Assembly (NCBI RefSeq): GCF_031180885.1
Contig: NZ_JAPSLK010000017.1
Span: 1-64,000, forward strand
DNA: 64,000 bases
Direction: 5' to 3'
Source of the DNA: Saccharothrix sp.
Lineage (GTDB): Bacteria > Actinomycetota > Actinomycetes > Mycobacteriales > Pseudonocardiaceae
Under the pieces are notes generated by a model that saw nothing but the letters and a program-made list of their open reading frames with translations, had not been told where the DNA came from and did not search any database. Made by a program: the position numbers and the translations under genes. The number at the start of each line of letters is the position of its first letter. The first letter of the stretch is position 1. Shown here in pieces: positions 30,741 through 45,574 of this stretch.

Positions 30741-30923
30741 ATGATCGAGCAGAACGACGTACCGGCCGAGGGCGAACAGCCCGAGCAGGAGCCGGAGTAC
30801 GTCCCGAACCGCCGCGAACGGCGCGGCCACGCCCAGAAGAACACGGGCGTGAACAAGATCCCCGGCCGGCCGCACCAGGCGAACTTCGTCGGGCGCAGGC
30901 TCTTCCGCCGCAACGGCGGCTGA
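30741..30923 (+). CDS. Small basic protein, 60 aa
   Basis: ATG 30741 follows the strong site GAGGAGGGG. The first 20 residues are acidic (DVPAEGEQPEQEPEY), the rest basic: VPNRRERRGHAQKNTG, NKIPGRPHQANFVGRRLFRRN. An acidic head and basic tail suit a nucleic-acid-binding or ribosome-associated protein. It is 33 bases downstream of the other small gene and co-transcribed with it. Unknown family. A 50-bp dyad element starts 8 bases after its stop, then a 16-bp-stem terminator. Confidence 0.75.
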   Translation: MIEQNDVPAEGEQPEQEPEYVPNRRERRGHAQKNTGVNKIPGRPHQANFVGRRLFRRNGG

Positions 30924-30930
30924 GCGCCCC

Positions 30931-30980
30931 GCGGCCTCCGGCCCCCGGTGTCCATTGTCGCATCGGGGACCGACAGTTCC
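30931..30980 (-). repeat. Two-hairpin element, copy A
   Basis: Minus-strand copy of the 50-bp family described in the findings. Read in sense it has CTGTCGG...GCGACAAT and GGGGGCCGGAGGCCGC. It is the only intergenic copy and the most diverged at its right end (GCCGC rather than GCCGGC). It lies between the small-protein gene and its terminator. Confidence 0.85.
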
Positions 30981-30997
30981 CGGCGGCCGGCCATTCG

Positions 30998-31037
30998 GCA
31001 CCGCCGGCACCGCGCTCATCACGCGGTGCCGGCGGTG
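30998..31037 (+). terminator. Terminator of the small-protein operon
   Basis: CACCGCCGGCACCGCG (30999-31014) pairs with CGCGGTGCCGGCGGTG (31022-31037) over a 7-base loop. Confidence 0.85.
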
Positions 31038-31095
31038 TGCCCGCATTTGTCCGTTTCCTTTGGGGTGCGCGGAATTCGTCTAGGCTCGTGGCGTC

Positions 31096-33930
31096 ATGAG
31101 CGCACAGCGGGTGAGTCCGGTTCTCGTCGGCCGGGCCGAGGAGTTCACGCGGCTGGGTGACGCGTTCGCCGACGTGCCCGCGACCGTGCTCGTCGGCGGT
31201 GAGGCCGGGGTCGGGAAGTCGCGGCTGGTGGCGGAGTTCGTCGCCGGGCTGGACGCGCGCGTGCTGGTCGGCGGGTGCGTCGAACTGGACGGGCTGCCGT
31301 TCGCGCCGTTCGTCGCCGCTCTGCGCGGGGTGGCGTTGACCGACCGGGAACGTGCCGATCTTGCGTCCCTGGTGCCGGGGCTGGAACCACGTCCGGGTGA
31401 CGAGGCGCGTCCTCGGTTGTTCGAGGGCGTGTTGGCGCTGTTGGCCCGGTTGTCCGAGCAGCAGCCCGTTGTCCTGGTGGTCGAGGACGCCCACTGGGCC
31501 GACCGGTCCAGCCGCGACCTGCTGGACTTCCTGGTGCGCAACCAGCGCGCGGTGCCGCGGTCGTTGATCGTGGTGACCCACCGGACCGACGAGACCAGTC
31601 GTCCGCTGCGCGCTGTGCTGGCCGAACTCGGCCGGGTGCCGTGGGTGCGTTCGGTCGAGTTGGGGCGGTTGTCGGCGCGGGACGTCCGGCAGCAGTTGCG
31701 GGAGATCCTGGGCAGTGAGCCCGATCCCGAGTTCGCGCGCGCGGTTTTCCGGCGCAGCGCGGGCAATCCGCTGTTCGTGGAGGCCCTGCTGGACGGGTCC
31801 GACGGGCGGTCGCTGGCCGAGTTGCTGCTGGGTCGGGTGGATCGCCTCGGCCCGGACGCTGTGGCGATCGTGCGCGCGGCGGCAGTCGGTGGCGCACGCG
31901 TCTCTCATGCGGTGCTCAGCCGCGTTGTCGACACCACGGCCATCAGGTCCACTGTGGACGGTGGTGTGCTGGTCGTGGACGGCGACGGGTACGCGTTCCG
32001 ACACGCCCTGATCCGCGACGCCGTGTGCGCGGACCTCCTGCCCGGCGAACGGGTCGACCTCCACGCCCGCTACGCCCAAGCCCTGCCCGAGGACGCCGCC
32101 GCCGAACTGACCCACCACCGCCACGCCGCCGGTGACCTGACCGGTGCCGTCGAAGCCGCATGGCGCGCAGCCGACACCGCTCGACGTGCCCTCGCCTACG
32201 CCGAACAGCTGGCCATGCTGGAACGTGTGCTCGACCTGTGGGACCACGCCGGGCACTTGGACGTCGACCGGAGCACCGTGCTGGAGAACGCGGGCGAGGC
32301 CGCGTGGCGGGCCGGCGAGGACTCCCGGGGCGTCGAGCTGACCACGGAACTCCTGGCATCCCTGGACATCGACGCCGAACGCATCCGTTACGCGGCGGTG
32401 CTAGAGCAACGGGCCCGAATGCTGGCCCGCCTGGGCCGCCCCGAGGCATTGGACGACCACCGCCGCGCCGTCGACACCGTTCCCGAAGGTCACGCGATCC
32501 GCGGCTACCTGCTCAACTCCCTGGCCGACCGCCTGATGGAGGTCCCCGCGCCGGACGAGGCCCGCGCCGCCGCCGAACAGGCCCTGGGCGCTTCCCACCA
32601 CGCCGGTGACGACCCGTCCGAAGCCGCGGCCTTGATCACCCTCGCCGTCCTGGACGCCCGCGAAGGCGACCTCGACGCCCAGCTACCACGCCTGGCCACA
32701 GCCGCCGCAATCGCAGAATCCGTTGCCGCCCACCAGATTCGGCTCCGCGCATTGCGCTGGGAGTCGTCCCTGTCCGAGGCGTTCGGCAGACTGGACCGGG
32801 CGGAGGAGTTGGCCCGACACGGCCTCCAGACCGCCCGCGAACTGGGCCTGGCCCGATCGGCCGGCGTAGAACACGCGGTCGCGCTGGCCATGGCCCAAGT
32901 CGGCGGCGGCAAGTGGGACGAGGCCGTCGAATGCATCGACCACGCCCTCGACCACGCCCCACCCCCGAACCACCACGCCCACCTGTTGTGCCTCAAGGGT
33001 TACGTGACCCTCCACCGCGGCGACCCCGACCACGCGGCATGGGCTGTCGCCAGGGCACGCGACCTGGTCGGTTCAGGCTTCAGCCAAGACCCCCTCCTCT
33101 TGGCCCGCCTGGACGCCGAAGTCCGCCGAGCCCAAGGCCACGACCCCGCCGAGGTCCTGCTGCCAGCCCTGGACCTGCCCCACCTGGCCCACGCGTCCCG
33201 CTTCGCCTGGCCCCTGCTGGTGATCGCCCGCCGAGCCGGAATTGTCGCACCCCCATGGGACAATGGAACCGGGGGCCGGAGGCCGGCCCGCGACGCCGGA
33301 GCCGAGGGTGGAGCCGAGGGTGGAGCCGAGGGTGGAGCCGACGCCGGGAGCGAGCCACCGACCCGCGATGCCGCGAGCGTGCAGCCGCGTCGCGATGCTG
33401 CGGGCGTGCCGCCGGGCCGCGACGTCGGGGGCGGGCCGCCGCGCGTAGCGCCGGAGCTGCCGGTGGTGGGTCCGGTGCAGCGCGCCTGGTCGCTCACCTT
33501 CCACGGCTCACCCGAGGCGATCCCCGCCTGGGAAGACCTCAACCAGCCCTTCCACCTCGCCTCCACCCTCGTCGAGCACGCCGCCGAAAACCCGAAAGCC
33601 CGCGCCGACGACCTGCGCCGAGCCGTGCAGCTCGCCGACGCGCTCCAAGCCGCACCCCTCCGCGCCCGCGCCGCCGACCTCGCCCGCCGCGCCCACGTCA
33701 CCCTCACCGGCGAAGGCACCGCCAAGCGCACCAGCTTCGGCCTGACCGCCCGCGAGGTGGAGGTCCTGCGCCTGGTCACCGACGGCCTGGCCAACCGGGA
33801 GATCGCCGAACGCCTGTTCATCTCGGCGAAGACGGCGAGCGTGCACGTGTCGAACATCCTCGGCAAGCTGGGCGTGGCCAACCGCGTCGAGGCCGCCGCC
33901 ACCGCACACCGGCTGGGCCTCTTCGAATAA
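31096..33930 (+). CDS. LuxR-family ATP-binding regulator (LAL type) with an in-frame repeat insertion
   Basis: A 944-aa regulator. The N-terminal ATPase has Walker A GGEAGVGKSRLVAEF (~residues 34-48) and Walker B VVLVVEDAHWAD. A long helical, TPR-like middle follows. The C-terminal LuxR helix-turn-helix reads LTAREVEVLRLVTDGLANRE, IAERLFISAKTASVHVSNIL and GKLGVANRVEA. LALs often control antibiotic or sugar genes. Residues ~715-790 are foreign-looking: GIVAPPWDNGTGGRRPA from repeat copy B, then AEGG repeats and an Arg/Pro-rich part, all in frame, after which helical sequence resumes (VQRAWSLTFHGSPEAIPAWE). A TAGGCT -10-like element before ATG 31096 suggests a leaderless message. Target genes unknown. 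Confidence 0.88.
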   Translation: MSAQRVSPVLVGRAEEFTRLGDAFADVPATVLVGGEAGVGKSRLVAEFVAGLDARVLVGGCVELDGLPFAPFVAALRGVALTDRERADLASLVPGLEPRPGDEARPRLFEGVLALLARLSEQQPVVLVVEDAHWADRSSRDLLDFLVRNQRAVPRSLIVVTHRTDETSRPLRAVLAELGRVPWVRSVELGRLSARDVRQQLREILGSEPDPEFARAVFRRSAGNPLFVEALLDGSDGRSLAELLLGRVDRLGPDAVAIVRAAAVGGARVSHAVLSRVVDTTAIRSTVDGGVLVVDGDGYAFRHALIRDAVCADLLPGERVDLHARYAQALPEDAAAELTHHRHAAGDLTGAVEAAWRAADTARRALAYAEQLAMLERVLDLWDHAGHLDVDRSTVLENAGEAAWRAGEDSRGVELTTELLASLDIDAERIRYAAVLEQRARMLARLGRPEALDDHRRAVDTVPEGHAIRGYLLNSLADRLMEVPAPDEARAAAEQALGASHHAGDDPSEAAALITLAVLDAREGDLDAQLPRLATAAAIAESVAAHQIRLRALRWESSLSEAFGRLDRAEELARHGLQTARELGLARSAGVEHAVALAMAQVGGGKWDEAVECIDHALDHAPPPNHHAHLLCLKGYVTLHRGDPDHAAWAVARARDLVGSGFSQDPLLLARLDAEVRRAQGHDPAEVLLPALDLPHLAHASRFAWPLLVIARRAGIVAPPWDNGTGGRRPARDAGAEGGAEGGAEGGADAGSEPPTRDAASVQPRRDAAGVPPGRDVGGGPPRVAPELPVVGPVQRAWSLTFHGSPEAIPAWEDLNQPFHLASTLVEHAAENPKARADDLRRAVQLADALQAAPLRARAADLARRAHVTLTGEGTAKRTSFGLTAREVEVLRLVTDGLANREIAERLFISAKTASVHVSNILGKLGVANRVEAAATAHRLGLFE
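33238..33287 (+). repeat. Two-hairpin element, copy B, inside the LuxR-type gene
   Basis: Plus-strand copy: ATTGTCGCA...ATGGGACAAT, then GGGGGCCGGAGGCCGGC (33271-33287). It is translated in frame as GIVAPPWDNGTGGRRPA and followed directly by a tandem repeat. Confidence 0.9.
33301..33336 (+). repeat. 12-bp tandem repeat in the LuxR-type gene
   Basis: GCCGAGGGTGGA occurs three times in perfect register, with degenerate flanking copies, coding for (AEGG)n just downstream of element copy B. Confidence 0.9.
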
Positions 33931-33995
33931 GGGCCTCTTCGCATAGGGCTGCCGCCCGATGTGCCGACACGGGCCTTAGACCGACCGTCGTGGGC

Positions 33996-34529
33996 ATGAC
34001 GATCACGATCCTGGGCATCGCGGGCAGCCTGCGCGGCCAGTCGTTCAACCGCAGGCTGCTGGCCGCCGCCCGGCACGAGCTGCCACCCGGCGCCGAACTG
34101 GTGGTGTGGGACGACCTGGCCACCGTGCCCCCGTTCGACGAGGACGCCGAGGAAGCGCCCGGCGAGGCGGTCGCGGGCCTGCGCAAGGCCGTCGCCGAGG
34201 CGCACGCGGTGCTCATCTCGACCCCCGAGTACAACAACTCCCTGCCCGGTCAGCTGAAGAACGCGCTGGACTGGGCGTCCCGGCCCTACGGCGCAGGTGT
34301 GCTGACCGGCAAGCCCGTCGCCGTCGTCGGCGCGAGCCCCGGTCCGCTCGGCGCGGTGTCCGCGCAGGCCGACGCCCGCCGCGTCCTGGCCACCGCCGGT
34401 GCCCGGGTGCTGCCCGGCCAGGTCGCCGTCGGGGACGCGTTCCGCCGGTTCGACGAGCACGGCCGGCTGCTCGACCACGACCTGCGCTCCGCGCTCGCCG
34501 ACCTGCTCAAGGCGCTGGTGCCCGCGTGA
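33996..34529 (+). CDS. NADPH-dependent FMN reductase family protein
   Basis: A 177-aa flavodoxin-fold oxidoreductase. TILGIAGSLRGQSFNRRLL is the phosphate loop for FMN; ISTPEYNNSLPGQLKNALDWASRP is the signature of the NADPH:FMN/azoreductase group; VAVVGASPGPLGAVSAQADARRVL follows. It reduces free FMN, quinones or azo/nitro compounds. ATG 33996 is chosen over GTG 33990 because it begins MTITILGIAGS directly. The stop overlaps the start of the next MFS gene (GTGA), so the two are coupled, suggesting reduction plus export of a toxic compound. Confidence 0.88.
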   Translation: MTITILGIAGSLRGQSFNRRLLAAARHELPPGAELVVWDDLATVPPFDEDAEEAPGEAVAGLRKAVAEAHAVLISTPEYNNSLPGQLKNALDWASRPYGAGVLTGKPVAVVGASPGPLGAVSAQADARRVLATAGARVLPGQVAVGDAFRRFDEHGRLLDHDLRSALADLLKALVPA

Positions 34530-35818
34530 CCCGCTGGGGCGCCGTGCTGGCGGTGGCGCTGTCGGTGGTGCTCGCGGCGCTGGACCTGACCGCCGTGGTG
34601 GTGGCGCTGCCGGTGATGGGGGAGGACCTGGGCGCGGGGCCGACCGTGACCCAGTGGGTCCTGCACGCCTACAACCTGCCGATGGTCGCGCTGAGCATCC
34701 CGGCCGGCCGGTGGCTGGACCGGGTGGGGCACCGGCCCGCGTACCTGCTTTCCGTCATCGGCTTCGGCGTGGCGAGCCTGGCGATCGCGCTGGCCCCGAC
34801 CGCCGGGCTGGTGCTCGCGGGTCGGGCGGTGCAGGGCCTGTTCAGCGCGTTGATCGGGGCGGTGACGATGCCGGTGATCGGCGCGGCGGTCCTCCCGCGG
34901 CACCGGGGGCGGGCGATGAGCCTGGTGCTGACGCTGATCCCGTTGAGCGGGGTGGCGGGGCCGGCGCTGGGCGGGGTGCTGACCGACGCGTTCGGGTGGC
35001 GGTCGGTGTTCCTGATCAACGTGCCGGTGGTGCTGGTGGCCGCGCTGGTCGGGTTGCGGACGATCCCGCGCTCGGACTTGGGGCTGCCGTGGCCGGGCAA
35101 GCGCTTGCTGCTGGAGGCGGCGGTCGTCGGTGTCGGGGCGACGGCGTTGTTCGTGCACGTGTACCTGCTGCCGGTGGCTGTGGTCGCGCTCGTGGTGTGG
35201 CTGCGGCTGCCGGAGGCGCGTCCGGTGCGGGACATGCTGCGCAGGCCCCGGCTGAGCCTGGCGCTGACGTCGATGCCGTTGATCATCGTCGGCATCGCGG
35301 CGCTGAACTTCGTCGTGCCCTACCTGATCGCCGACCGGCCGGCGGTCGTCATCGGCTTGGCGGTGCTGTCGATGTCGGCGGGCATGGCGGTGTTCTCGCC
35401 GCTCGCGGGCGTGCTCGCGGACCGGTTCGGCGCGGTCCCGGTGGCGGCGGTCGGCTCGGTCGTCGCCATGATCGGCACCGTTCTCCTGCTGCCCGTGGAC
35501 GCCGCGACCCCGACCGCGGACCTGGTCTGGCGGCTGGCCGTGCTCGGCGTCGGCCACGGCCTGTTCGCCGGCCCGAACGCCGCCGCGATCCTCGCCGAGA
35601 CCCCGCCGGACCTGGTCGGCACGTCCGGCGGCCTGACCTCGCTGCTGCGCACCCTGGGGTTCTCGGCCGGACCGGCCCTCGGCGCGGCGATCGGCGTGTT
35701 CACCCCCACGGTCGTGGCGTTGCTGGTGGTCACGGCACTGGGTATCACCGCGTCGGCCGCACAACTGCGGTGGTCCCATCGGGCGGATGATCTGCCGTTC
35801 GAGCGCCGGGCGAACTAG
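34526..35818 (+). CDS. MFS transporter, DHA2-like exporter
   Basis: A 430-aa transporter. The start VLAVALSVVLAALDLTAVVVALPVMGEDLG (D-x-T-V-V-x-x-A-L-P) is the motif of the EmrB/QacA drug-exporter family. The motif A loop is RWLDRVGHRPAYLL, and motif C-like GPALGGVLTDAFGWRSVFLINVP follows. At 430 aa it is shorter than the ~480-500 of 14-helix members, so it may have fewer helices. GTG 34526 overlaps the preceding FMN reductase stop by four bases. Substrate unknown; co-translation with a reductase hints at detoxification. Confidence 0.85.
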   Translation: MTRWGAVLAVALSVVLAALDLTAVVVALPVMGEDLGAGPTVTQWVLHAYNLPMVALSIPAGRWLDRVGHRPAYLLSVIGFGVASLAIALAPTAGLVLAGRAVQGLFSALIGAVTMPVIGAAVLPRHRGRAMSLVLTLIPLSGVAGPALGGVLTDAFGWRSVFLINVPVVLVAALVGLRTIPRSDLGLPWPGKRLLLEAAVVGVGATALFVHVYLLPVAVVALVVWLRLPEARPVRDMLRRPRLSLALTSMPLIIVGIAALNFVVPYLIADRPAVVIGLAVLSMSAGMAVFSPLAGVLADRFGAVPVAAVGSVVAMIGTVLLLPVDAATPTADLVWRLAVLGVGHGLFAGPNAAAILAETPPDLVGTSGGLTSLLRTLGFSAGPALGAAIGVFTPTVVALLVVTALGITASAAQLRWSHRADDLPFERRAN

Positions 35819-35865
35819 CCTGAGGTGGGTAGCACCGGATCTGGCTCGGATCAGGGAGGCGCCAC

Positions 35866-36294
35866 ATGAGGATCGCTGACGTCCTGCGGACCAAGGGCTC
35901 GGCCGTCGCGACGGTCGGGACGAGAGCGTCGGTGGCTGAGCTGGTAGCCGCCCTCGCCGAGCACAACGTGGGCGCGATGGTCGTCGTCGGACCGGACGGC
36001 ATCGCGGGCATCGTGTCCGAACGGGACGTCGTCCGCAGGCTGCACGACCGCGGCCCGGCCCTGCTGGAGTCGCCGGTCGAGGAGATCATGACGACCGAGG
36101 TCTTCACCTGCTCCCCGAAGGACTCGGTGGAAAGCCTGTCGGTCCTGATGACCGAACGCCGGATCCGCCACGTGCCGGTGGTGGCCGACGGGCAGTTGGT
36201 CGGCATCGTCAGCATCGGCGACGTGGTGAAGAGCCGCATCAGCCAACTGGAAGAAGACCAGGACCAGCTGACCGCTTACATCGTTCAAGGCTGA
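35866..36294 (+). CDS. CBS-domain protein
   Basis: A 142-aa protein made only of a CBS pair (Bateman module). CBS1 covers ~7-60 (ASVAELVAALAEHNVGAMVVV, GIAGIVSERDVVRRLHDRG) and CBS2 ~75-130 (CSPKDSVESLSVLMTERRIRHVPVV, GQLVGIVSIGDVVKSRI). Such stand-alone proteins bind AMP, ATP or NAD and resemble M. tuberculosis HRP1 in plan, but no zinc Cys are seen. ATG 35866 follows AGGGAGG. It is a single-gene unit ended by a strong hairpin; the partner enzyme is unknown. Confidence 0.88.
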   Translation: MRIADVLRTKGSAVATVGTRASVAELVAALAEHNVGAMVVVGPDGIAGIVSERDVVRRLHDRGPALLESPVEEIMTTEVFTCSPKDSVESLSVLMTERRIRHVPVVADGQLVGIVSIGDVVKSRISQLEEDQDQLTAYIVQG

Positions 36295-36304
36295 TCCGGG
36301 CTCG

Positions 36305-36340
36305 ATGCCGCGCTGCGCTTCTCCACGCGCAGCGCGGCAT
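36305..36340. terminator. Terminator after the CBS gene
   Basis: ATGCCGCGCTGCGC (36305-36318) pairs with GCGCAGCGCGGCAT (36327-36340). The perfect stem lies between two converging reading frames. Confidence 0.9.
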
Positions 36341-36366
36341 TCGCGCTGAATAAGGATCGGTCGGAG

Positions 36367-38273
36367 TCACGCCTTGTCTGCCGCCAGGTCGGCTGCCTGG
36401 GCGCGTGCGGTTTCGGCGGCTGGGTCGTTGAACGCCTCCAGCAGGGTCAGGGCCTCCAACGCCGGTTCTCGGGCGTCCTCCACGGCTCCGGACCCGCGCA
36501 GTGCTCGTGCGAGGTTCGTCAAGGCGGTGGCGAGCAGCCAGGGGTTCTCCGCGTCCCGCAGCGCGGATACGGCCATGCGGTGGAAGCGCGTGGCGTCCTC
36601 GTGACGGCCCAGTTGCGTGTATGCCTCGCCGGTCACGTCGAGGGCGACAGCCTCCCGGACGCGGTCGCCGAAGCGGCGTTGCATCGTCGCCGACCGCTGG
36701 AGTGCCGTGAGTGCGTGGTCCGGGTGGCCCAGGCCGCATTGGACGCGGGCCGACTCGACCAGCCAGAGCGCCTCGGCCACCGGGTACTCGTCAGCGCGGG
36801 CGAGCGTCAGGGCGTGGTCGATCGCCTCCAGCGCTTCGGTGAAGCGGCCCTGGCCGCGCAGTGCGCCGCTCAACCCGTGCAGGCAGTCGCCCTCGCAGAT
36901 CCGGTCGCCGATCACCCGGTAGACCTCGAGGGCCCACCGGAGCCGTCGCTCCGCTTCCGCCCACCGGCCGGCGTCGAGGTGGACCTGGGCGATGTTGGTG
37001 GTCGAAACGGCCGACCAGTAGTCGCTGTCCAATCGACCGGCGATGTCGCGAGCCTCCTCGAAGCAGTGGAGTGCGTCGTCCAGGTCTCGGCGTCGCAGGA
37101 AGGCCAGGCCCAGCGCGTTGACTGAGGAGAGGGTGCCGGGCAGGTCGTCCAGGTCCCGCCTGATCGACAGGGCGGTGCGGTGGTACCCGATGCCCTCGCG
37201 CACGGCACCGGACTGGACCTTGGCCTTGCCGAGGCTCTCCAGGATCTCGGCCTCGCCGGCGCGGTCCCCGAGCATGCGAACTGAGCGCAGCGCGACCTCG
37301 CCGGTCAAGGCGGAACAGCTTGCCCGCGTCCTTGGTCAGGGCCCGGTACGACCACGCGAACACGGCTCGGACGGCGTCCGCGTCGTCATCGTCGGCGGTG
37401 AGCGCGTCCCACAGCATCGACTCGTCGCGCAGTTCCGCGATCAGCGCGTGCAGCGGCATGTGGGGGCGGCTGGCCGCGCGTTCCGCGGCGATGCACAGCG
37501 CCAGCGGCAGCCGTGCGCACAGTCCCGCCAGTTCCCGCAGCTCGGCCGGGTCGTCCCGGCGGGCGGTACCCGGCGGTCACGCCCTGGAGCAGTTCGATCG
37601 ACTGTTCCTCGGACAGCACGCCCAGGCTGACCCGGTGCGCGCCGTCCCGGGCCACCAGCCCGGACAACCTGCTGCGGCTGGTGATCAGGACCAGGCAGCC
37701 CGCCGTCCCGGGCAGCAGCGGGCGGACCTGCGCCACGCTGGACGCGTTGTCCAGCACGACCAGGATGCGCCGGTCGGCGAGCAGCGACCGGTAGGCGGCG
37801 GCACGGGCTTCGGGATCAGCCGGGATCGACTCGGCCGGCACCTGGAGGGCGCCGAGGAACCGTTCGAGGGCCTGGTGCGGGGTCACCGGTGGGCCGGGGT
37901 CGTAGCCGTGGAGGTTGACGTAGAGCTGCCCGTCGGGGAACCGGTCCACCACCCGGTGCGCCCAATGCACCGCCAGCGACGTCTTCCCGACGCCGGCGGT
38001 CCCGACCAGGATGCACAGCGCCAACGACCGTTCGGGACCGGAGCCGTCGCCGAGGAGGCGGTCGAGCCGGTCCAGGTCGTCGACCCGGTTGACGAAGCCC
38101 CGGACGTCGGCGGGCAGTTGCCGGGGCGGGTCCCGGCGGCCGCGGTGACCGCCGTAGAAGTGCACGCCGCCGCTGACGTCTCGGGCCTGGACGATCTCAT
38201 CGGCGCTGCCCGAGACCTCGTTGGACTGGTCCGGCCGGTCGGCGTTCCCCGCGATGTCGAGACCCCCTGCCGA
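36367..38273 (-). pseudogene. Broken NB-ARC/TPR regulator (AfsR-like), internal deletion plus frameshift
   Basis: Three pieces in three frames are recognised on the minus strand. Piece 1 (38273-~37560) has NEVSGSADEIVQARDVSGG, LPADVRGFVNRVDDLDRLD, the P-loop VGTAGVGKTSLAVHWAHRV and Walker B RILVVLDNAS. A +1 shift near 37560 leads to piece 2 (~37560-37310), DDPAELRELAGLCARLPLAL to FAWSYRALTKDAGKLFRL. That breaks into piece 3 (37310-36367), the TPR part (TGEVALRSVRMLGDRAGEAE onward). About 200-300 residues (winged helix and linker) normally between pieces 2 and 3 are missing. Piece 1 also lacks an ATG/GTG before 38165. The gene is probably dead; the shift alone could be a sequencing error, but the deletion could not. 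Confidence 0.8.
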
Positions 38274-38876
38274 TCAGCGTGCGCCGGGCGGGCGCAGCCC
38301 CGCGATCTCGCGGTCGAAGAAGTCGGCGATGTCCTCGGACCGGTCGAACAACGCGACGAACACACCCCGCCAGCGCGCGACCTGCTCCCGCTCGGTCGAC
38401 CGGATCGCGCCCGTGGCCACGCCATCGTCGTCGTAGAGCACCTGGTAGACCACCGCTTCGTCGATGCCGACGACCTCCGGCAGCGCTCCGCCTGCTTCGT
38501 GCGGTGCGACCAGGTCGTGACCGGCCACGCGGATCAGCTCGCCGAGTTCCCGCCGCTGGCGCAGGGAGTTCAGCTCCCAGATCAGGTAGGGGCTGACGGG
38601 TTGCTCCACCACCCGGACGCGCCGGACGTCCAACCCGCGTTCGGCGAGCTGCTCGTGGTACTCGCGCAGCGCGGGCTTGCGCTCGTCGATCAGCCGAAGT
38701 GCTTCCGCCCAATCGCCGCGGGCGAACGCGTCGTAGCTGGCGCTGCCCTGCTCGACGAACGTCTGCCGCCGTTCCAGCTTCCAGCAGTCGGCTGCCGGCC
38801 CTTCGAAGCGCTCGGTGAAGTCCGCGATGTAGTCGTCCAGGGAGAGGCGGTCACCGGTCACCGCGTTGTCGCTCAA
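38274..38876 (-). CDS. DUF6879-type protein
   Basis: A 200-aa protein. SLDDYIADFTERFEGPAADCWKLERRQTFVEQGSASYDAFARGDW is a helical N-terminus; LDVRRVRVVEQPVSPYLIWELN is the beta core seen in actinobacterial DUF6879 proteins; the end is helical (WRGVFVALFDRSEDIADFFDRE). These genes are numerous in actinomycetes beside regulators and tiny proteins; function unknown. TTG 38876 overlaps the stop of the preceding gene by four bases. It lies directly upstream of the broken NB-ARC gene, whose frame begins at this gene's stop, so all three were probably one operon. Confidence 0.7.
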   Translation of the reverse strand: MSDNAVTGDRLSLDDYIADFTERFEGPAADCWKLERRQTFVEQGSASYDAFARGDWAEALRLIDERKPALREYHEQLAERGLDVRRVRVVEQPVSPYLIWELNSLRQRRELGELIRVAGHDLVAPHEAGGALPEVVGIDEAVVYQVLYDDDGVATGAIRSTEREQVARWRGVFVALFDRSEDIADFFDREIAGLRPPGAR

Positions 38877-39136
38877 GGGATGTCGACCTTCGCTGCGCGC
38901 ATCATGTTGCCGGGGATGACGACGAGTCGTTCGTCGGGGCCGACGTGGACGCCGTCGGGAAGCCGGGTGGCGTACTGGGTGGTGAGGTCGCGCCCGATCA
39001 CGACGACGTCACCGTTGTCGAGTTCCCAGATGTCCGGGCACGTCGGCGTGTTGTCGGTGTTCCCCAATTCGGCCGCTGTCTTGCCCAACCGTCGGCTGAA
39101 ACCCGCCGTCGGATCGGCCTCCCACGGTCGAGGCAT
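38873..39136 (-). CDS. Small actinobacterial protein, 87 aa
   Basis: It begins MPRPWEADPTAGFSRRLG and carries a compact domain TCPDIWELDNGDVVVIGRDL ... RLPDGVHVGPDERLVVIPG. Small proteins with CPDIWEL..GD..VIG and a later GERLVVIP-like segment recur beside DUF6879 and helix-turn-helix genes in actinomycetes, as I recall them. ATG 39136 has AGCGGAGG about 8 bases upstream. It overlaps the DUF6879 gene, heading the operon. It might be a small partner of the regulator below; role unknown. Confidence 0.65.
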   Translation of the reverse strand: MPRPWEADPTAGFSRRLGKTAAELGNTDNTPTCPDIWELDNGDVVVIGRDLTTQYATRLPDGVHVGPDERLVVIPGNMMRAAKVDIP

Positions 39137-39249
39137 TGTCGACCTCCGCTGTTCAGTTGGTGACTGTCCGGCAGTCCTATGGGTGCGGACAGTTATCGGA
39201 GCCGCAACAATGCGGTCCACCCTCGCCGGTTCACCTGATCGGAGAACTG

Positions 39250-39786
39250 TTAATCGTGGGTGCGGTGGTAGTGGCGGCTTACTCGGGCTCGGTTGCCGCA
39301 GGAGGGTTTGCACCACTGTTGTTTCGGGTGGGTGCGGACGAAGTAGCGGATGCACCTGGGGGACGGGCAGGCGCGTAGGTCGTCGCGTGTTTCGCCGGCC
39401 AGGAGTTCGATCGCGGACGTGGCCAGGTCGGCCAGGAGGCGTTCGCCGGGGGTCGCGGTGTCGACGTAGTGGAGCGTGGGCGGGGTACCCCAGTGGAGTT
39501 GGGCGGATCTGGGGGCGGCGGCTGCCCTGGTGTTGACCAGGTGGAGGGCCTCGTCCAGCGGGCGCAGGTACGGCGTGTCGATGCGGGGGCCGGCGTTCGA
39601 GGCGTGGGCGAAGAGGGAGCGGATGGCCCAGCGGAGGTCGGTGACGGCGTGCAGGAGGTCCTCGGTCGCGGGTGTGCCGGACCACGCGGTCAGGGCCTCC
39701 ACCGTCGACAGGGCGTCTTCGAGGCCGCCGTGGCCGTCGTGGCGCACCGTGGCGGCGAACTCCAGCGCGCGATTCATCCTCCTCAT
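39250..39786 (-). CDS. CGNR zinc-finger (ABATE-domain) regulator
   Basis: A 178-aa protein. The N-terminal ~125 residues are the helical ABATE-like ligand domain. The C-terminal zinc finger reads LRACPSPRCIRYFVRTHPKQ then WCKPSCGNRARVSRHYHR, with four Cys and the CGNR signature. Such proteins are thought to be stress- or ligand-responsive DNA binders. ATG 39786 is used; ATG 39777 (MNRALEF) is possible, with AGGAGG immediately before it. It is divergent from a mycothiol-type DinB enzyme across a 73-bp gap with a CCTAATGG...CCATTAGG dyad, so probably controls itself and that gene. Confidence 0.85.
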   Translation of the reverse strand: MRRMNRALEFAATVRHDGHGGLEDALSTVEALTAWSGTPATEDLLHAVTDLRWAIRSLFAHASNAGPRIDTPYLRPLDEALHLVNTRAAAAPRSAQLHWGTPPTLHYVDTATPGERLLADLATSAIELLAGETRDDLRACPSPRCIRYFVRTHPKQQWCKPSCGNRARVSRHYHRTHD

Positions 39787-39852
39787 CCTAATGGACTTCG
39801 GGTGGGTGAACCGCTAGGTTGCCTAACGGCTTAACGTATCAATCCCATTAGG
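39787..39852. promoter_or_regulatory. Putative operator region of the CGNR regulator
   Basis: CCTAATGG (39787-39794) and CCATTAGG (39845-39852) form a perfect 8-bp inverted repeat, one arm next to each start codon. A central TAGG-ttg-CCTA lies near 39815. Spacing suggests looping or two half-sites. Confidence 0.5.
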
Positions 39853-39859
39853 GGGAGTC

Positions 39860-40510
39860 GTGACGATCACTGGGGCCGCGTTGGACGCGCACCGCCGGCT
39901 GGGCGAACTGGTCGCCGGGCTGACCGACGACCGGGTCCGCGAGCCGTCCGTCCTGCCCGGCTGGACCCGTGGGCACGTGTTGGCGCACATCGCGGGCGTC
40001 ACCGAGGCCATGGCCCGCCAGGCGGAGAACGAGGGCACCAAGCTGGAGCCCTACCCGGGTGGCCGGCCGGCGCGGGACGCGGCGATCGAGGAGCGGGCCG
40101 GGCGGTCGGCGGCCGAGCACCGAACCGCGATCGCGGCGGCCGTCGAGCGGCTGGAGAAGGCGTGGGACGGCGTGCGGGACTGGTCGACGCCGGTCGCCTA
40201 CCGCGACGGCACGCTGGAGGACACCGCCTACGCGGTCTGGCGCGAGATCGAGATCCACACGTTCGACCTCGGCCTCGGGCCGGTCACCTTCTCGCCCGAG
40301 TTCTGCGAGCACGCGGTGGACTTCCTGGCCAAGCGGGTCCCGGACGGCGTGCAGCTCATCCTCGCCTCACCGGGTCGCAAGTGGACGATCGGCACGGGTG
40401 AACCGCACGAACTGCGCGGCGAGGCGACCGATCTCGTGGTGTGGCTCGCGGGCCGCGAACCGCTGGGCGAGGTCACCGGGACGCGGCCGGAGCTGAACCC
40501 CTGGCCGTAG
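39860..40510 (+). CDS. Maleylpyruvate isomerase-family (mycothiol-dependent DinB fold) protein
   Basis: A 216-aa four-helix protein of the MDMPI/DinB_2 group. LPGWTRGHVLAHIAGVTEAM provides the first metal His pair region and WREIEIHTFDLGLG the later metal His, so the divalent-metal site looks intact. The C-terminal MDMPI_C-like part includes PGRKWTIGTGEP. Members use mycothiol for isomerisation or thiol transfer; the substrate here is unknown. GTG 39860 follows AGGGGGAG. Divergent from a CGNR regulator that may control it. Confidence 0.82.
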   Translation: MTITGAALDAHRRLGELVAGLTDDRVREPSVLPGWTRGHVLAHIAGVTEAMARQAENEGTKLEPYPGGRPARDAAIEERAGRSAAEHRTAIAAAVERLEKAWDGVRDWSTPVAYRDGTLEDTAYAVWREIEIHTFDLGLGPVTFSPEFCEHAVDFLAKRVPDGVQLILASPGRKWTIGTGEPHELRGEATDLVVWLAGREPLGEVTGTRPELNPWP

Positions 40511-40513
40511 GGA

Positions 40514-41710
40514 CTACATGCTCCACACGGACCGGGTGCGGGTGATCAGGACCGCTTGGACCACCAGACCCGCCACGGCGATCCACAACGCGGTCCGGTG
40601 GTCGAAGAGGCCTGCCAGCAGGCCTCCCAAAGGCGCCCCGACCACGATCATCGCCCGGTTCAGCGACCGGATCGTGGCGTTCATCCGGCCCTGGAGGTGG
40701 TCGGGCGTGATGGCCTGCCGGTAAGCCATCTCCGGCGGGCTGTCCACGCCCACGCCCAGGCCCCACACCAACTGGGCGGCCGACAGCACGACCAGGCCGG
40801 TCACGGTCGAGTCGGCGAACGGGACCAGCGCGTAGGCCACCGGCGTCATCCACCGGCCGAGCGAGATCACCCGTCCCGGACCGCCCAGCGCCGCCACCGC
40901 CCGGTTGGACAGGGACGCGCCGACGACCGTGCCGATCCCGCCCACCGCGAACGCGATGCCCAGCTCGAACGCCGAGAACCCCAGCACCTCGTACCCGAAC
41001 ACCAGGAACACCGTCGCCGCCAGCCCGTTGAACAGGAACCACATGTGCGACGTGACCGCCAACGGCCGCAGCACCGGGTGCCGGTACACCCACGCCAGCC
41101 CTTCGCGCAGCTCACGCCGCAGGTTCCGGCGTTCGGGCGGCACGACCTGCTCCTCCACCCGGAGGGTCGTCAGCACCAGCCCCGACACCAGGTAGGACAC
41201 CGCGTCCACGAGGATCGCCAGCGGCGCGCCGACGGCCGTGATCAGCACACCCGCCAGGGTCGGGCCGGCCGACTGCGCGGTCGCCCGGGTCTGCTCCATG
41301 CGGGCGTTGGCGGTGGTCAGCCAGGTCGCCGGCACCAGCTTCGGCAGGAACGACTGGTGCGCCGCGTCGTACCCCAGCGACAGCGCGCCGAACACCGTGA
41401 CCAGCGCGAACAGCACCGGCAGGGTCAGCGCGCCGGCCGCGTGCAGCACCGGCACCAGGCCCAGCACGACGAACCGCGCCAGGTCCGCCCCGACCAGGAT
41501 CGGCCACCGCCGGTACCGGTCCACCACCACGCCCGCCAGCAGGCCGAACAGCAGGTACGGCACCCACGGCGCGGACCGCAGCAGCCCCACCTCGAACTCG
41601 GACGCGGCCAACTCGTCCATCGCCAGGACGGCCAGCGCCAGCGTCGTGATGTGCGTGCCGACCAACGACACCGTGTCCGCGGCCCAGAACTTCGAGAATG
41701 TTCTTGTCAA
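40514..41710 (-). CDS. MFS transporter
   Basis: A 398-aa, 12-helix major facilitator. The start FSKFWAADTVSLVGTHITTLAL and the motif A loop GVVVDRYRRWPILVGADL are like those of the tandem pair at 12-14.5 kb, as is MAYRQAITPDHLQGRMNATI near the end. It thus belongs to the same exporter subgroup, though not adjacent. TTG 41710 is the only start giving the full first helix. Its stop converges four bases from the DinB-fold gene's stop. Substrate unknown. Confidence 0.82.
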   Translation of the reverse strand: MTRTFSKFWAADTVSLVGTHITTLALAVLAMDELAASEFEVGLLRSAPWVPYLLFGLLAGVVVDRYRRWPILVGADLARFVVLGLVPVLHAAGALTLPVLFALVTVFGALSLGYDAAHQSFLPKLVPATWLTTANARMEQTRATAQSAGPTLAGVLITAVGAPLAILVDAVSYLVSGLVLTTLRVEEQVVPPERRNLRRELREGLAWVYRHPVLRPLAVTSHMWFLFNGLAATVFLVFGYEVLGFSAFELGIAFAVGGIGTVVGASLSNRAVAALGGPGRVISLGRWMTPVAYALVPFADSTVTGLVVLSAAQLVWGLGVGVDSPPEMAYRQAITPDHLQGRMNATIRSLNRAMIVVGAPLGGLLAGLFDHRTALWIAVAGLVVQAVLITRTRSVWSM

Positions 41711-41773
41711 AGCGCCCCCTTGGGCAACAAGCTTGCCAAACCGCCGCGTGTCTTCGTGGTGGAAGGAGACGAC

Positions 41774-42529
41774 GTGGCACCAACCCGTCGTTCAGTGCTG
41801 GCAGGCATCGCGGCGTCGCCGCTGCTCATCGGAGGTGGCGTGGCGAACGCGGCCACATGGCGGCAGAAGTGGGCCGCCCAGGGCATGAGCGCCTTCGAGA
41901 GCATCGAGGACGACCGCGCCGACTCGCACCCCGGCGTCACGCACATCTACATGCAGGGCACCGACTACCGGTTCGACATGCACACACGTGACCGCGACAC
42001 GTCCACCGACCGGCAGCGCAACGAGGTCGCGGGCATGCGAACCAACGGCGCCAACGTCAACATCTACAAGGGCGAGACGTGGCGCTTCCGGTACTCGATG
42101 TTCATCCCCAGCTCGCTCCAGGCGACGACCACCTTCACGCACATCATGCAGACCAAGATGCCCGGCGTCGGGTCCGCTCCCGTGACGGTGATGTCGCTGC
42201 GCCGCACCAACGGCGTGCAGAAGATCGAGTTCAAGGTGGTCGAGGGCAACGTGCTGGTCGGCAACACCGACCTGGTCCCCCTGCACAACCGGTGGATCGA
42301 CACCGTGGTCGAGATCGGGGTCGGCGACGGCACGTCCGGCCGCGTGCGGTGGATCGTGCGCAGCGGCGGCACGACCGTGCTGGACAAGACCCGCACCGGC
42401 GTGGACACCTGGCTGGGCGACCGCCTGCGCCCGAAGTGGGGCATCTACCGGTCGCTCGGCGACACCTCCGGGTCGATCAAGAACTGCCACCTGCTGCTCC
42501 GCGATCTGCGGGCGGATAAATTCGAGTGA
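41774..42529 (+). CDS. Tat-exported polysaccharide-lyase-like protein
   Basis: A 251-aa protein with a twin-arginine signal, APTRRSVLAGIAASPLLIGG (residues ~2-21), probably cut after VANA. The mature protein is a beta jelly roll of the heparin-lyase/PL-like family: KGETWRFRYSMFIPSSLQAT, TFTHIMQTKMPGVGSAP, LHNRWIDTVVEIGVGDGT, DTWLGDRLRPKWGIYRSL. Such proteins cleave uronic-acid polysaccharides by beta-elimination; the exact substrate and catalytic residues are not determinable here. GTG 41774 has AAGGAG at a good distance. The stop overlaps the next gene by four bases. Confidence 0.78.
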   Translation: MAPTRRSVLAGIAASPLLIGGGVANAATWRQKWAAQGMSAFESIEDDRADSHPGVTHIYMQGTDYRFDMHTRDRDTSTDRQRNEVAGMRTNGANVNIYKGETWRFRYSMFIPSSLQATTTFTHIMQTKMPGVGSAPVTVMSLRRTNGVQKIEFKVVEGNVLVGNTDLVPLHNRWIDTVVEIGVGDGTSGRVRWIVRSGGTTVLDKTRTGVDTWLGDRLRPKWGIYRSLGDTSGSIKNCHLLLRDLRADKFE

Positions 42530-43467
42530 TGCTGCACGAGATCGCCGAGGCCACCCGCCGCTTCCTCGACCTGCTCGACGAGCGGCAGCGCGCGGCGGCG
42601 GTGCGGGACGTCGCCGACGACGACCTGCGCCGCACGTGGGCCTACACGCCCGGACCGCGCCCTGGGCTGGTCCTCGGCGATCTCGACCGCGACCAGCGCA
42701 AGGCCGTGCACGGGCTGCTGGCGTGCGTGCTCAGCCCGCACGCCTACGCGCAGGCGGCGGCCGTGATGGCGCTGGAGGACGTGCTGGACGACCGCGAGGG
42801 CGGGCGGCGGGACCGGCACCAGGGTGACTACTGGACCGTCCTGCTCGGCGAACCGGGGTCCGATGAGCCGTGGGGCTGGCGGGTCGAGGGGCACCACCTG
42901 TCGGTGAGCGTGGTCGTGGCGGACGGCCGCGTGTCGGCGACCCCGTTCTTCCTGGGCGCGAACCCGGCCCGGGTCACCTACCGGGGGCGGACCGTCTCCC
43001 AGCCCCTGCGGCTGGAGGAGGAGCTGGCCCGCGAACTCCTCGACCGCATGGGACGCACCGCGCGAGGCCTCGCCGTGGTGTCCGACCGGCCGCCGCCGGA
43101 CCTGTACACCGGCAACGCGTCCCGGGTCGGCGACATCGAGCCGCAGGGCGTGACGCCGGCGCAGCTGGACCGGGCGTCGCGCGGCCTGCTGGTGGGCCTG
43201 GTGCGCTACTACCTGGACCGCCTGCACAGCGACCTCGCCGACGAGGAGTTCGACCAGCTCGACCTGGACCGGTTGCACTTCGCGTGGCAGGGCTCGGCGT
43301 CGCGGGGCGCCGGGCACTACTACCGCATCCAGGGTCCCGAGTTGTTGATCGAGTACGACAACACGGCCAACGAAGCCAACCACGTGCACTCGGTGTGGCG
43401 CAGGCGTTCCGGGGACTTCGGCGACGACCTGCTGGCGGCGCACCGGGCGGCGGTGAGGCACGAGTGA
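42526..43467 (+). CDS. DUF3500 family protein
   Basis: A 313-aa protein with the DUF3500 pattern: QGDYWTVLLGEPGSDEPWGW, RVEGHHLSVSVVVADGRV, TPFFLGANPARV, and late HFAWQGSASRGAGHYYRIQG, ELLIEYDNTANEANHVHSVW, RRRSGDFGDDLL. It is conserved across bacteria and fungi, with no proven activity. The His, Asp and Glu residues in GHH, HYYRIQGP and EYDN suggest a metal or catalytic site. GTG 42526 or ATG 42529 overlaps the polysaccharide-lyase stop, and its own stop overlaps endonuclease V, so the three are translationally coupled. Confidence 0.85.
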   Translation: MMLHEIAEATRRFLDLLDERQRAAAVRDVADDDLRRTWAYTPGPRPGLVLGDLDRDQRKAVHGLLACVLSPHAYAQAAAVMALEDVLDDREGGRRDRHQGDYWTVLLGEPGSDEPWGWRVEGHHLSVSVVVADGRVSATPFFLGANPARVTYRGRTVSQPLRLEEELARELLDRMGRTARGLAVVSDRPPPDLYTGNASRVGDIEPQGVTPAQLDRASRGLLVGLVRYYLDRLHSDLADEEFDQLDLDRLHFAWQGSASRGAGHYYRIQGPELLIEYDNTANEANHVHSVWRRRSGDFGDDLLAAHRAAVRHE

Positions 43468-44096
43468 CGCCGGAGGAGGCGGTCGCGGAGCAGGAACGGC
43501 TGCGTCCGCTGGTGCGTGCTTCGTGCGACCCGGGTTTCTCGGTCCGGTACGTCGCCGGCTTGGACGTCGCCTATGCGGATGACGACCGGGTGGTCGGTGC
43601 GGTGGTCGTCTTGGACGCGGTGTCGTTGGAGACCGTGGACACGGCGGTGGTCGCTGGTGTTGCCGACTTCCCTTATGTGCCGGGGCTTTTCGCCTTCCGT
43701 GAGCTGCCGACTCTGTTGGCTGCCTTGGACCGGTTGACCGTGCGGCCGGACCTGTTGGTGTGCGACGGGCAGGGGTTGGCGCATCCGAGGCGGTTCGGGC
43801 TGGCGTGTCACATCGGGGTGCTGACCGACTTGCCTTCTGTCGGGGTGGCGAAGACGCCGATGGGTGTTTTCGAGATGCCTTCCGATGAGCGCGGTGCGCG
43901 GACGGACTTGGTGGATGACGGCGAGGTGGTGGGTCGGGCGTTGCGGACGCGGGCCGGGGTGAAGCCGGTGTTCGTGTCCGTGGGGCACCGGATCGACCTG
44001 GACCGGGCGTGCGCCGAGGTGCTGCGACTGTGCTCGGTGCGGTTGCCGGAGACCACCCGGCGGGCGGATGCCCTGGGGCGGGCTCACTTGAGGTAG
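43464..44096 (+). CDS. nfi: Endonuclease V (deoxyinosine-specific)
   Basis: A 210-aa repair or RNA-processing nuclease that cuts one base 3' of inosine. Motifs: VAGLDVAYADD with the first catalytic Asp, VADFPYVPGLFAFRELP, LLVCDGQGLAHPRRFGLACH with the second Asp, and SVGVAKTPMG. All key residues are present and the length is normal. GTG 43464 overlaps the DUF3500 stop by four bases. The 3' end overlaps the convergent GH4 gene by 13 bases. Its coupling to a polysaccharide lyase and DUF3500 looks like chance operon assembly. Confidence 0.92.
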   Translation: MTPEEAVAEQERLRPLVRASCDPGFSVRYVAGLDVAYADDDRVVGAVVVLDAVSLETVDTAVVAGVADFPYVPGLFAFRELPTLLAALDRLTVRPDLLVCDGQGLAHPRRFGLACHIGVLTDLPSVGVAKTPMGVFEMPSDERGARTDLVDDGEVVGRALRTRAGVKPVFVSVGHRIDLDRACAEVLRLCSVRLPETTRRADALGRAHLR

Positions 44097-45574
44097 GCCA
44101 GCTCCGGGTGGCGGTTCAGGTAGGTGTCCAGCAGGCTTTTCGCGATCTTGGTGGAGTCGACGAGCGGGTGCAGGCCGAACGCCTTGAGCGCGGCGGGGTA
44201 GGTGCCTTCGAGGACCAGTCGGTCGATCGCCTTGATCGTTTGGACCAGGCCGGCGGCGTGGTCGGGCAACGGGCTCACCGCGTCCGGCTTGGCACCGTTT
44301 GCTCCTACTGTGCACGGCACTTCTACTACAGCTTTGTGGTCCAGTATGGACAGTGTGTTTCCGTTGCGTACGTTGAGGATTAGCGTAGTGCGTTCGTCGT
44401 TGGCGATGGCGTGCATGAGCTTGAGCGCGACGTGTTCGTACCCGCCGCCTTCGAGGGAGTCGCGCTCCTGCTTCATGTAGGTGGCTTCGCGTTCGAGCCG
44501 GGTCGTCTCCCAGTCGACTTCGCCGTCGTAAAACCGTTGTTGTTGGCGTAGCAGGAACGCGCCCCGGTCGCCCCCCATGGCGTCGCGGGTGTCGTAGTAG
44601 TAGTGCAGGTACTCGTTCGGGATGACACCCAGTGCCCGCAGCCACTCCGCCCCGAACAGCCGACCTTCCTCGAACGACCGGAGCTTGTCGTCGTCGGTGA
44701 GCAGTCGGGGTAGCAGGTTCTCGTGGTCGACGTACACGCCTTGCAGCCAGCCGAGGTGGTTGAGCCCGGCGTAGTCGAACCGGGCGTTCTCGACACCGAG
44801 CGCGCGCTCGACGCGTCGGCACAGGCCGTAGGGGGAGTCGCAGATGCCGATCACGCGGTCGCCGAGGTGGTCGGCCATGGCTTCGGTGACCAGTCCGGCG
44901 GGGTTGGTGAAGTTGATGACCCAGGCCTGCGGCGCGATTTCGGCGATCCGGCGGGCGATCTCCCGCGCCACCGGCACAGTCCGCAACCCGTACGCGATCC
45001 CGCCCGCGCCCACGGTTTCCTGCCCCAACACCCCGTGCGCGTGCGCGACCCGCTCATCCACCGCCCGGCCGCTCAACCCGCCCACCCGGATCGCGGAGAA
45101 CACGAAATCCGCGCCCCGCAACGCCTCGTCGAGGTCCGTCGTCGCCCACACCCGAGGCCCGCTGCCGGCCTCCGGCCCCCGGTGACCATTGTCCCACCCA
45201 CCACCGACAATTCCGCCGCTGTCGCTGTCGCTGTCGCTGCTGCCGCTGCTGTCGCTGGTGCCGCTGCTGTCGCCACCGCCACCGCTGCTGTCGCTGGTGC
45301 TGCTGCCGCTGCTGGCGCCGCCGCTCCCGCTGCTGGCGCCTGTGCTGCCGCCGCCTGCGCTGCTGGCGTGGCCGCTGGTTCGGCCGTGGTTGTCGGTGGT
45401 CCGTGGGACAATGGAAGCGGGGGCCGGAGGCCGGCCCAGCACCTCCTGCACCCGCGCCAGCCGAGCGGCATCGACGTCGTAAAGCACCAGTTCGTCCACC
45501 AGACCGTCGCCCACCAGCGCCCGGTGCACCAACGGCACCCGGAACCCGCCACCGCCCAGGATCACCAGCCTCAC
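44084..45574 (-). CDS. GH4 family 6-phospho-beta-glucosidase with a ~90-residue repeat insertion
   Basis: A 496-aa NAD+/Mn2+-dependent glycosidase. The Rossmann start is LVILGGGGFRVPLVHRALVG. Later come FTNPAGLVTEAMADHLGD, GICDSPYGLCRRV (metal Cys), YAGLNHLGWLQG (metal His) and DTRDAMGGDRGAF. Family members are ~410-450 aa. Residues ~48-137 are an extra segment: GRPPAPASIVPRTTDN (element copy D read backwards), ~57 Ser/Gly/Asp-rich residues, then GGIVGGGWDNGHRGPEAG (copy C). Removing it leaves a normal enzyme joining VQEVLG to PRVWATTDLDEALRGAD. The insert is in frame, in a surface loop after the first beta-alpha unit. GTG 45574 overlaps the LysR stop. Confidence 0.88.
   Translation of the reverse strand: MRLVILGGGGFRVPLVHRALVGDGLVDELVLYDVDAARLARVQEVLGRPPAPASIVPRTTDNHGRTSGHASSAGGGSTGASSGSGGASSGSSTSDSSGGGGDSSGTSDSSGSSDSDSDSGGIVGGGWDNGHRGPEAGSGPRVWATTDLDEALRGADFVFSAIRVGGLSGRAVDERVAHAHGVLGQETVGAGGIAYGLRTVPVAREIARRIAEIAPQAWVINFTNPAGLVTEAMADHLGDRVIGICDSPYGLCRRVERALGVENARFDYAGLNHLGWLQGVYVDHENLLPRLLTDDDKLRSFEEGRLFGAEWLRALGVIPNEYLHYYYDTRDAMGGDRGAFLLRQQQRFYDGEVDWETTRLEREATYMKQERDSLEGGGYEHVALKLMHAIANDERTTLILNVRNGNTLSILDHKAVVEVPCTVGANGAKPDAVSPLPDHAAGLVQTIKAIDRLVLEGTYPAALKAFGLHPLVDSTKIAKSLLDTYLNRHPELAYLK
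45164..45214 (-). repeat. Two-hairpin element, copy C, inside the GH4 gene
   Basis: Read on the minus strand: ATTGTCGGT...GGGACAAT, then GGGGGCCGGAGGCCGGC. It is in the sense of the host gene and in inverted orientation to copy D, 169 bp away. Confidence 0.9.
45215..45383. repeat. Low-complexity Ser/Gly-coding repeat between element copies C and D
   Basis: Imperfect 3- and 6-bp tandem repeats based on GCTGTC, GCTGCC and GCTGGC (plus strand). On the minus strand they code for runs of Ser, Gly, Asp and Ala (SSDSDSDSGG, SSGGGGDSSG). The tract is bounded exactly by the two element copies. Confidence 0.88.
45384..45433 (+). repeat. Two-hairpin element, copy D, inside the GH4 gene
   Basis: Plus-strand copy: GTTGTCGGT...GTGGGACAAT, then GGGGGCCGGAGGCCGGC. 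It is antisense to the host gene, yet its translation in that direction (GRPPAPASIVPRTTDN) is open. Confidence 0.9.

Follow-up and report, generated by a model that had tools for sequence, protein, structure and literature searches.

The DNA analysed here is a 64,000-nt stretch of Saccharothrix sp. (RefSeq assembly GCF_031180885.1, contig NZ_JAPSLK010000017.1, positions 1–64,000; hereafter the window), which contains four copies of a repeat of about 50 bp. At least 150 copies are present in the genome from which the window comes (G000; 9.46 Mb in 125 contigs). We consider it probable, at roughly 65%, that these repeats form a new family of small, non-autonomous, dispersed palindromic elements derived from a DNA-damage promoter cassette, with members in several genera of a single actinobacterial family. 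The elements would be comparable in kind to repetitive extragenic palindromic (REP) sequences, miniature inverted-repeat transposable elements (MITEs) and Rickettsia palindromic elements (RPEs). They are numerous and modular, they occupy sites that are empty in close relatives, they are enriched between convergent gene ends and also lie inside genes, and in other genera their left half is identical to a promoter consensus.

All four window copies were recovered with a covariance model built from 34 copies, the four among them, each at E ≤ 4.4e-12 (Table 1). They align as the initial annotation had described and, as it had also stated, three of the four lie within predicted coding sequences (CDS). 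A fifth match in the window (E 0.96) is at chance level, and no Rfam family matches at the gathering score in the window or in nine further loci. That the four might be the only copies is excluded by the genome-wide search, whose figure of at least 150 for G000 is a lower bound (150 candidates were scored). The pattern TTGTCG-N8-TGNGACAATGG, with up to one mismatch, gave 131 matches in G000 and none in the reversed control. A weight matrix applied to 60 G000 regions gave 126 matches above 16 bits and none in reversed sequence; these regions, 1.15 Mb around known copies, overlap slightly, so that a few units are counted twice.

Two kinds of unit, T and I, have a common left half, (A)TTGTCG-N8-TGGGACAATGR, and different right halves. 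The T unit is about 47 bp long and ends in GG-A-R-N-C-GGGGGCCGGAGGCC, while the I unit ends in GCCCCAGGGGGCGCTC and is followed after 47–49 bp by the start of the next unit. Single copies are terminal T units, some of which carry one to three tandem I units on their 5′ side; in the G000 unit list, I-type units lie on the 5′ side of a further unit that has the same orientation. Among the 104 arrays in the 60 regions and the window, 86 consist of one unit, 13 of two, 3 of three and 2 of four, and by a loose test a T-type tail closes 101 of them. Information content across 103 T units places the edges at AATTGTCG and GGAGGCC(R), beyond which there is little signal, and a recognised right hairpin is present in 93 of the 103. 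The right end is often duplicated in tandem along with its flank, as at C51:540931, C65:54057 and C4:306603 and also in S. algeriensis. A tandem array at about position 41,440 of G000 contig C80 (L241) continues into a stretch of Ns.

The left half had been described as a dyad whose stem is preserved by compensating changes, and the unit alignments do not bear this out. Counting from the outside in, the five pairs of the proposed stem are formed in 64, 92, 93, 102 and 103 of 103 T units and in 14, 22, 12, 25 and 20 of 25 I units, with G opposite G at the third pair in 12 of the latter. In both sets the changes break pairs or convert them to wobble pairs, and none occurs on both sides of the stem; given this lack of covariation, a conserved left hairpin is not supported. 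Judging from its sequence, a kinship with the RecA-independent damage promoter (RecA-NDp) motif accounts better for the left part. The consensus of that promoter is given as tTGTCRgtg-8nt-TannnT in the text available from PMC5656591. PafBC is described as acting through it (excerpts of PMC6789036 and PMC8223512), and a figure legend in the latter ties recA, uvrA and uvrC to the PafBC regulon.

In other genera the left module reads TGTCGGTG-N8-TAnnnT, which is the damage-promoter consensus, fused to a G-rich hairpin. Of 30 chosen genomes, 14 contain the full pattern, TGTCGGTG-N8-TANNNT-GG-N1-6-CGGGGG, all of them among the 19 that are not Saccharothrix; they belong to 5 of 8 genera, and the reversed control gave no match. 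Exact copies number 52 in G115, 41 in G141, 19 in G209, 14 in G066, 13 in G148, 10 in G132, 7 each in G253 and G208, and 1–4 in each of six others. The pattern is absent from all 11 Saccharothrix genomes searched, G000 included, and from five other genomes. A regular expression that replaced a too narrow pattern (4 sites) identified 37 units in 91 kb at 27 loci of other genera retrieved with the T model, and none in the reversed sequence. The −10 slot of these 37 units holds TA in 20 and the final T in 35, and the expression had no match in 139 kb from 13 congener loci that lack T units. All 103 G000 T units have GA in this slot, 61 of them as GACAAT, a count that depends on a weight matrix itself built from GA-type units; the copies in the window accordingly depart from the promoter consensus.

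The right half takes several sequence forms (GGGGGCCGGAGGCC, GGGGGGCGCCCCC, GGGGGGATCCCC, GGGGGCTGCTCAGC and others) and remains G-rich. In G115, a member of genus g31, 8 of the 27 loci read consist of two outward-facing T units around 39–83 bp that contain one or two TTGTCCACAG- or CTGTGGACAA-like boxes, the composite measuring about 130–180 bp; several composites take up the greater part of the space that separates two stop codons. We take the TTGTCCACAG-like box to be the DnaA box known from high-G+C actinobacteria. Boxes of this kind occur within 45 bp upstream of 25 of the 37 units in this first set from other genera, within 50 bp upstream of 17 of 44 units in a second, mixed set, and, with a narrower pattern, upstream of none of the 103 G000 units. 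T units serve as inverted ends in the G115 composites, and no terminal inverted repeats are present in the G000 single T-unit consensus. Outward pairs in G000 were also considered as full MITEs and rejected, their spacing and content being inconsistent, so that this interpretation is confined to G115. Several T units of S. algeriensis, S. tamanrassetensis (G164) and G110 have a CTCTCAGCT/CTCTCAGC-like box some 22 bp upstream, where G115 has TTGTCCACAG (loci with the CTCTCAGC-like box: L055, L060, L179, L052, L062 and L048). A bolder reading, which we hold to be well short of likely, is that the whole family is a mobile DNA-damage switch. Its units, dozens of them, would be driven by PafBC and placed between convergent genes, one genus having them as divergent pairs that flank a DnaA-box-like centre, and its Saccharothrix form would have become selfish.

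Within the genus the distribution is patchy. At E ≤ 0.001 the T model matches 7 of 25 genomes, with 104 matches in G166, 28 in G110, 22 in G151, 16 in G164, 14 in G150 (S. algeriensis) and 4 in G157 besides those in G000, and none at this threshold in the other 18. Across the family, with stricter filters, 16 of 249 genomes match the model, in 6 of 46 genera, and the exact left-half pattern occurs in 5 of 150 genomes. The I model matches 17 of the 25 genus genomes, 10 of which lack T units; since these matches are mostly weak and the four that were read belong to a sibling unit, the I model is no tracer of T-unit carriers. The sibling unit was read at one locus each (L254–L257) in G160, G165, G088 and G152, genomes without T units that have 2–4 I-model matches apiece. 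It combines the same left half with a hairpin of the form CAGGGGTCCCCTGG..GGGGAC. A third right half, AGATCGGGGGCTGCTCAGC, is present in G000, G151 and G164, and the family looks modular, with one left half and several right halves. The repeat had no match in plasmids or phages. Viral spread was rejected as an explanation: 30 contig matches to a short pattern lack the right half and flanks of the repeat and appear to be due to chance.

Comparison with the congener G166, which is 88–90% identical to G000 over most of the window stretch compared, revealed occupied and empty sites. Copy 1 is absent from G166, which has about 11 other bases in its place, and copy 2 is absent together with about 165 bp of adjoining low-complexity coding DNA; for these two copies G166 alone of 20 congener loci could be bridged. 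Copy 3 and its GCTGTC-type spacer are likewise missing, and one T unit stands at the place of copy 4. At this last site, within a glycoside hydrolase family 4 (GH4) gene, 19 of 20 congener loci were bridged; the unit is present in G166 and in none of the 18 others, and the 19 non-G166 loci hold no unit anywhere along their length. Because the site is empty in 18 congeners and G166 has the copy 4 unit only, copy 4 most simply predates the G000/G166 split and copy 3 arose later. In G166 about 3 kb of the window (about 36294–39254) is replaced by about 20 bp.

A wider comparison covered 109 unit clusters, 31 of which had both flanks in the G166 loci retrieved. At these 31 sites G166 has a unit in 14, a right end only in 4 and nothing in 13, with the qualifications that the match scored under copy 3 in fact corresponds to copy 4 and that the right end scored at C51:410096 is, by alignment, a degenerate unit common to both. 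Arrays also differ by whole units, with four in G000 versus one in G166 at C73:13731 and two versus one at C27:149575. The initial annotation had proposed comparing orthologues with and without the element for target-site duplications. Empty sites were indeed found, and no duplication was seen by eye at copies 1, 2 and 3/4 or at C51:540882, where divergence of about 10% could hide a short one.

Genes around the arrays were called with a home-made codon-usage gene finder, which assigns about 88% of the sequence to coding regions. The 104 arrays comprise 68 between genes, 32 inside predicted CDS and 4 across a CDS end. Convergent gaps contain 29 of the 64 intergenic arrays with both neighbours called, versus 23% of intergenic bases (p = 8e-5), and divergent gaps are avoided (5 of 64, versus 29% of bases; p = 3e-5). 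In other genera, 14 of 22 intergenic clusters at the g31 loci lie in convergent gaps, with four further clusters inside predicted genes, as do 17 of the 34 clusters with both neighbours in the mixed set. Intragenic arrays use all six frames (sense 10, 5 and 1; antisense 7, 5 and 4). Eleven arrays lie in hosts that were scanned against Pfam. Five fall outside any match: in the gap between AAA_16 and GerE of the window regulator, in a condensation/carrier gap, near the N-termini of a carbamoyltransferase and a helicase, and in a pentapeptide-repeat protein. Two more interrupt the N-terminal part of GH4. In three nonribosomal peptide synthetase/polyketide synthase (NRPS/PKS) proteins the arrays are clear of the best domain stretches listed. 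The NRPS/PKS genes at L066 (C73), L069 and L070 (C17) carry two to three T arrays each in the stretches read.

The bias toward convergent gaps, seen in all three sets, could also mean that the repeats are not selfish and are kept by the host as 3′-end elements, either bidirectional terminators or stabilisers of mRNA 3′ ends. Right halves do fold better than nearby sequence (means of −15.1 versus −9.9 kcal/mol for G000 T units and −13.5 versus −10.3 kcal/mol at the other loci), figures that are descriptive since the loci were chosen by motif. We nevertheless think this explanation doubtful. Against it stand the 32 arrays inside genes and the 18 genus genomes with no T unit at E ≤ 0.001; no run of T residues follows the hairpin in the copies listed, and a selfish element pruned by selection would yield the same bias.

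Unit orientation bears on another proposal, that the repeats are working PafBC promoters which drive neighbouring genes as part of a genuine DNA-damage regulon. The exact consensus in other genera would fit it, as would the sole strict damage-promoter site in the 1.15 Mb of G000, which lies 6 bases before the predicted uvrC start. Most units, however, point toward the 3′ end of an opposite-strand gene: 45 of 63 arrays in G000, and 26 of 33 and 28 of 40 units in the other two sets. Units have no clear orientation preference in tandem intergenic regions (17 vs 12, 5 vs 6 and 7 vs 8 in the three sets), and in G000 they avoid divergent regions. This arrangement argues against simple promoters for the next gene, and we regard a regulon of this kind as unlikely.

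It is more improbable still that these are old, vertically inherited repeats shaped by decay and local slippage with no dispersal. Tandem copies of arrays and of right ends are indeed seen and G166 shares the unit at 14 of the 31 comparable sites, but other orthologous sites are empty, those in both window host genes included. At the GH4 site 18 outgroup loci lack the unit, and one species has at least 150 copies where 18 of 25 genus genomes have none at threshold.

Size, hairpin, inverted pairs, the preference for 3′ ends and the intragenic copies would all suit REP elements moved by an IS200-type (Y1) transposase of the RAYT class. A lone transposase of this type in the same genome had been put forward as a thing to look for, and Y1_Tnp (PF01797) is absent from G000. 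It is also absent from G166, G110, G151, G164 and G150; the seventh carrier, G157, with four copies of the repeat, has one. Of the five Y1-bearing genomes among the 25 of the genus, four have no T units, and the GTAG tag is missing from the unit edges in the consensus, as is an unpaired CGTC tag. Mobilisation by RAYT/Y1 was therefore rejected as scarcely credible. An origin from REP13E12/DUF222-HNH (13E12) elements was rejected as well, G000 having no DUF222 gene (PF02720). The suggestion of a REP- or MITE-like family thus holds as regards small size, dispersal and sites that differ between close relatives, and fails as regards a Y1 enzyme in G000.

Other bacteria have well-characterised palindromic repeats that are small and dispersed (PMC10969869, PMC3733652 and PMC2229807). 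We found no comparable family in these actinobacteria among the papers listed from the open-access literature searched, those listed for sequence strings being unrelated by title; this agrees with the initial remark that no described family with such a sequence was known. Neisserial Correia/NEMIS elements are portrayed in PMC2229807 as small elements whose ends are inverted and which have putative divergent promoters and a protein-binding site inside, located both between and within genes. The G115 composite resembles them in its outward promoter-like ends and central box. It differs in its unrelated sequence and in a central box that is TTGTCCACAG-like and not an integration host factor (IHF) site; in addition, no target duplication was seen for the repeat, its promoter-like motif is of a damage-inducible class, and most G000 units are single. 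RPEs are inserted in frame in unrelated protein genes (sections of PMC10969869 and PMC2229807), as the present repeat is in 32 of 104 arrays, with empty orthologues of the LuxR-type gene in G166 and of the GH4 gene in 18 congeners. Unlike RPEs of 105–150 bp, the repeat is about 47 bp long, has a promoter-like left half and an actinobacterial host, and uses all six frames, so that there is no conserved peptide. REP/GTAG and CGTC palindromes are short hairpins, often in inverted pairs and some intragenic, and CGTC REPs have no dedicated transposase; in the portion consulted, CGTC repeats are placed in other phyla, and the main text contains neither ‘actinobacter’ nor ‘Streptomyces’ (PMC3733652). 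The present repeats are likewise short hairpins between genes, at times inverted or intragenic, that differ by having neither tag and by the lack of a Y1 transposase in six of seven carriers. Compared with RecA-NDp/P1 promoters of the PafBC regulon, whose consensus its left module equals in other genera, the repeat is multicopy, dispersed, fused to a hairpin and mostly directed at gene 3′ ends, with GA for TA in Saccharothrix. BOX elements and MIRU are likewise built of modular units in tandem; in the present repeats the I and T units have a common left half and differing right halves.

For a dispersed repeat family derived from a damage-promoter cassette, we envisage the following course. The left module would be related to the RecA-independent damage promoter, with the G-rich right hairpin placed where the transcript of that promoter would begin. 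TA in the −10 slot would be the older state and GA the derived one, and TA-type copies probably give rise, on DNA damage, to outward transcripts with the hairpin at their start. In Saccharothrix the T unit, sometimes behind one to three I units, would have multiplied to at least 150 copies in G000, mobilised in trans by an enzyme that leaves no evident target-site duplication. Arrays may then grow and shrink through unit slippage or recombination, and insertions presumably survive mainly where promoters and reading frames stay unbroken.

Several observations weigh against this account. GA in 103 of 103 slots makes promoter activity of the G000 units doubtful, and the promoter reading of the left module is drawn from its sequence. 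The expression that identified the 37 units matched the G000 regions 86 times versus 8 on reversed sequence, and earlier matches were known when the 60 G000 regions, like the 30 genomes for the TA-pattern test, were picked. No transposase could be linked to the family and target-site duplications were not seen, so that movement is read from presence and absence only. Many G000 insertions are accompanied by extra low-complexity DNA, and some apparent gains could therefore reflect indel-rich turnover, or else losses in G166; polarisation by outgroups is confined to the GH4 site, copies 1 and 2 depending on the comparison with G166. Four of the 11 arrays in Pfam-scanned hosts lie inside a domain match (CobN, MFS and two AMP-binding). 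Finally, intragenic arrays contain no stop codons by construction, as the gene finder calls open frames only.

The window features are collected in Table 1. Copy 2 lies between the AAA_16 (5–154) and GerE (878–930) domains of its LuxR-type host. The low-complexity DNA beside copy 2 and between copies 3 and 4 is of the GGAGCCGAGGGT and GCTGTCGCTGCC types.

Table 1. Repeat copies, adjoining low-complexity DNA and associated genes in the window.
Feature	Position	Strand	Description
T unit, copy 1	30932–30980	−	Intergenic; 8 bp past the stop of a 60-aa predicted ORF
60-aa predicted open reading frame (ORF) beside copy 1	30741–30923		No Pfam match
T unit, copy 2	33238–33285	+	In frame in LuxR-type ATPase regulator gene, aa 710–725
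Low-complexity coding DNA adjoining copy 2	33286–33451	+	Also missing from the G166 orthologue
Host gene of copy 2	31111–33930	+	AAA_16 ATPase with C-terminal LuxR/GerE domain
T unit, copy 3	45166–45214	−	In frame in GH4 gene, aa 121–136
Low-complexity GCTGTC-type coding spacer, copies 3 to 4	45215–45385	−	Missing in G166
T unit, copy 4	45386–45433	+	Same GH4 gene, antisense to the gene, aa 48–63
Host gene of copies 3 and 4	44084–45574	−	Glycoside hydrolase family 4

What makes the family unusual is a left half that is a RecA-independent damage-response motif, together with two modes of residence: between genes at convergent ends, and in frame inside genes, NRPS/PKS megasynthases included. The pair G000 and G166 makes the dynamics of the repeat measurable. 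If TA-type copies are active, they would offer a ready test of repeats that spread a stress-inducible transcription programme. Should the family as a whole prove to be a mobile damage switch, DNA damage would give rise, genome-wide, to hairpin-capped transcripts antisense to gene ends, and the Saccharothrix cassette would have lost its −10 element, turned selfish and reached at least 150 copies, and would now also lengthen proteins.

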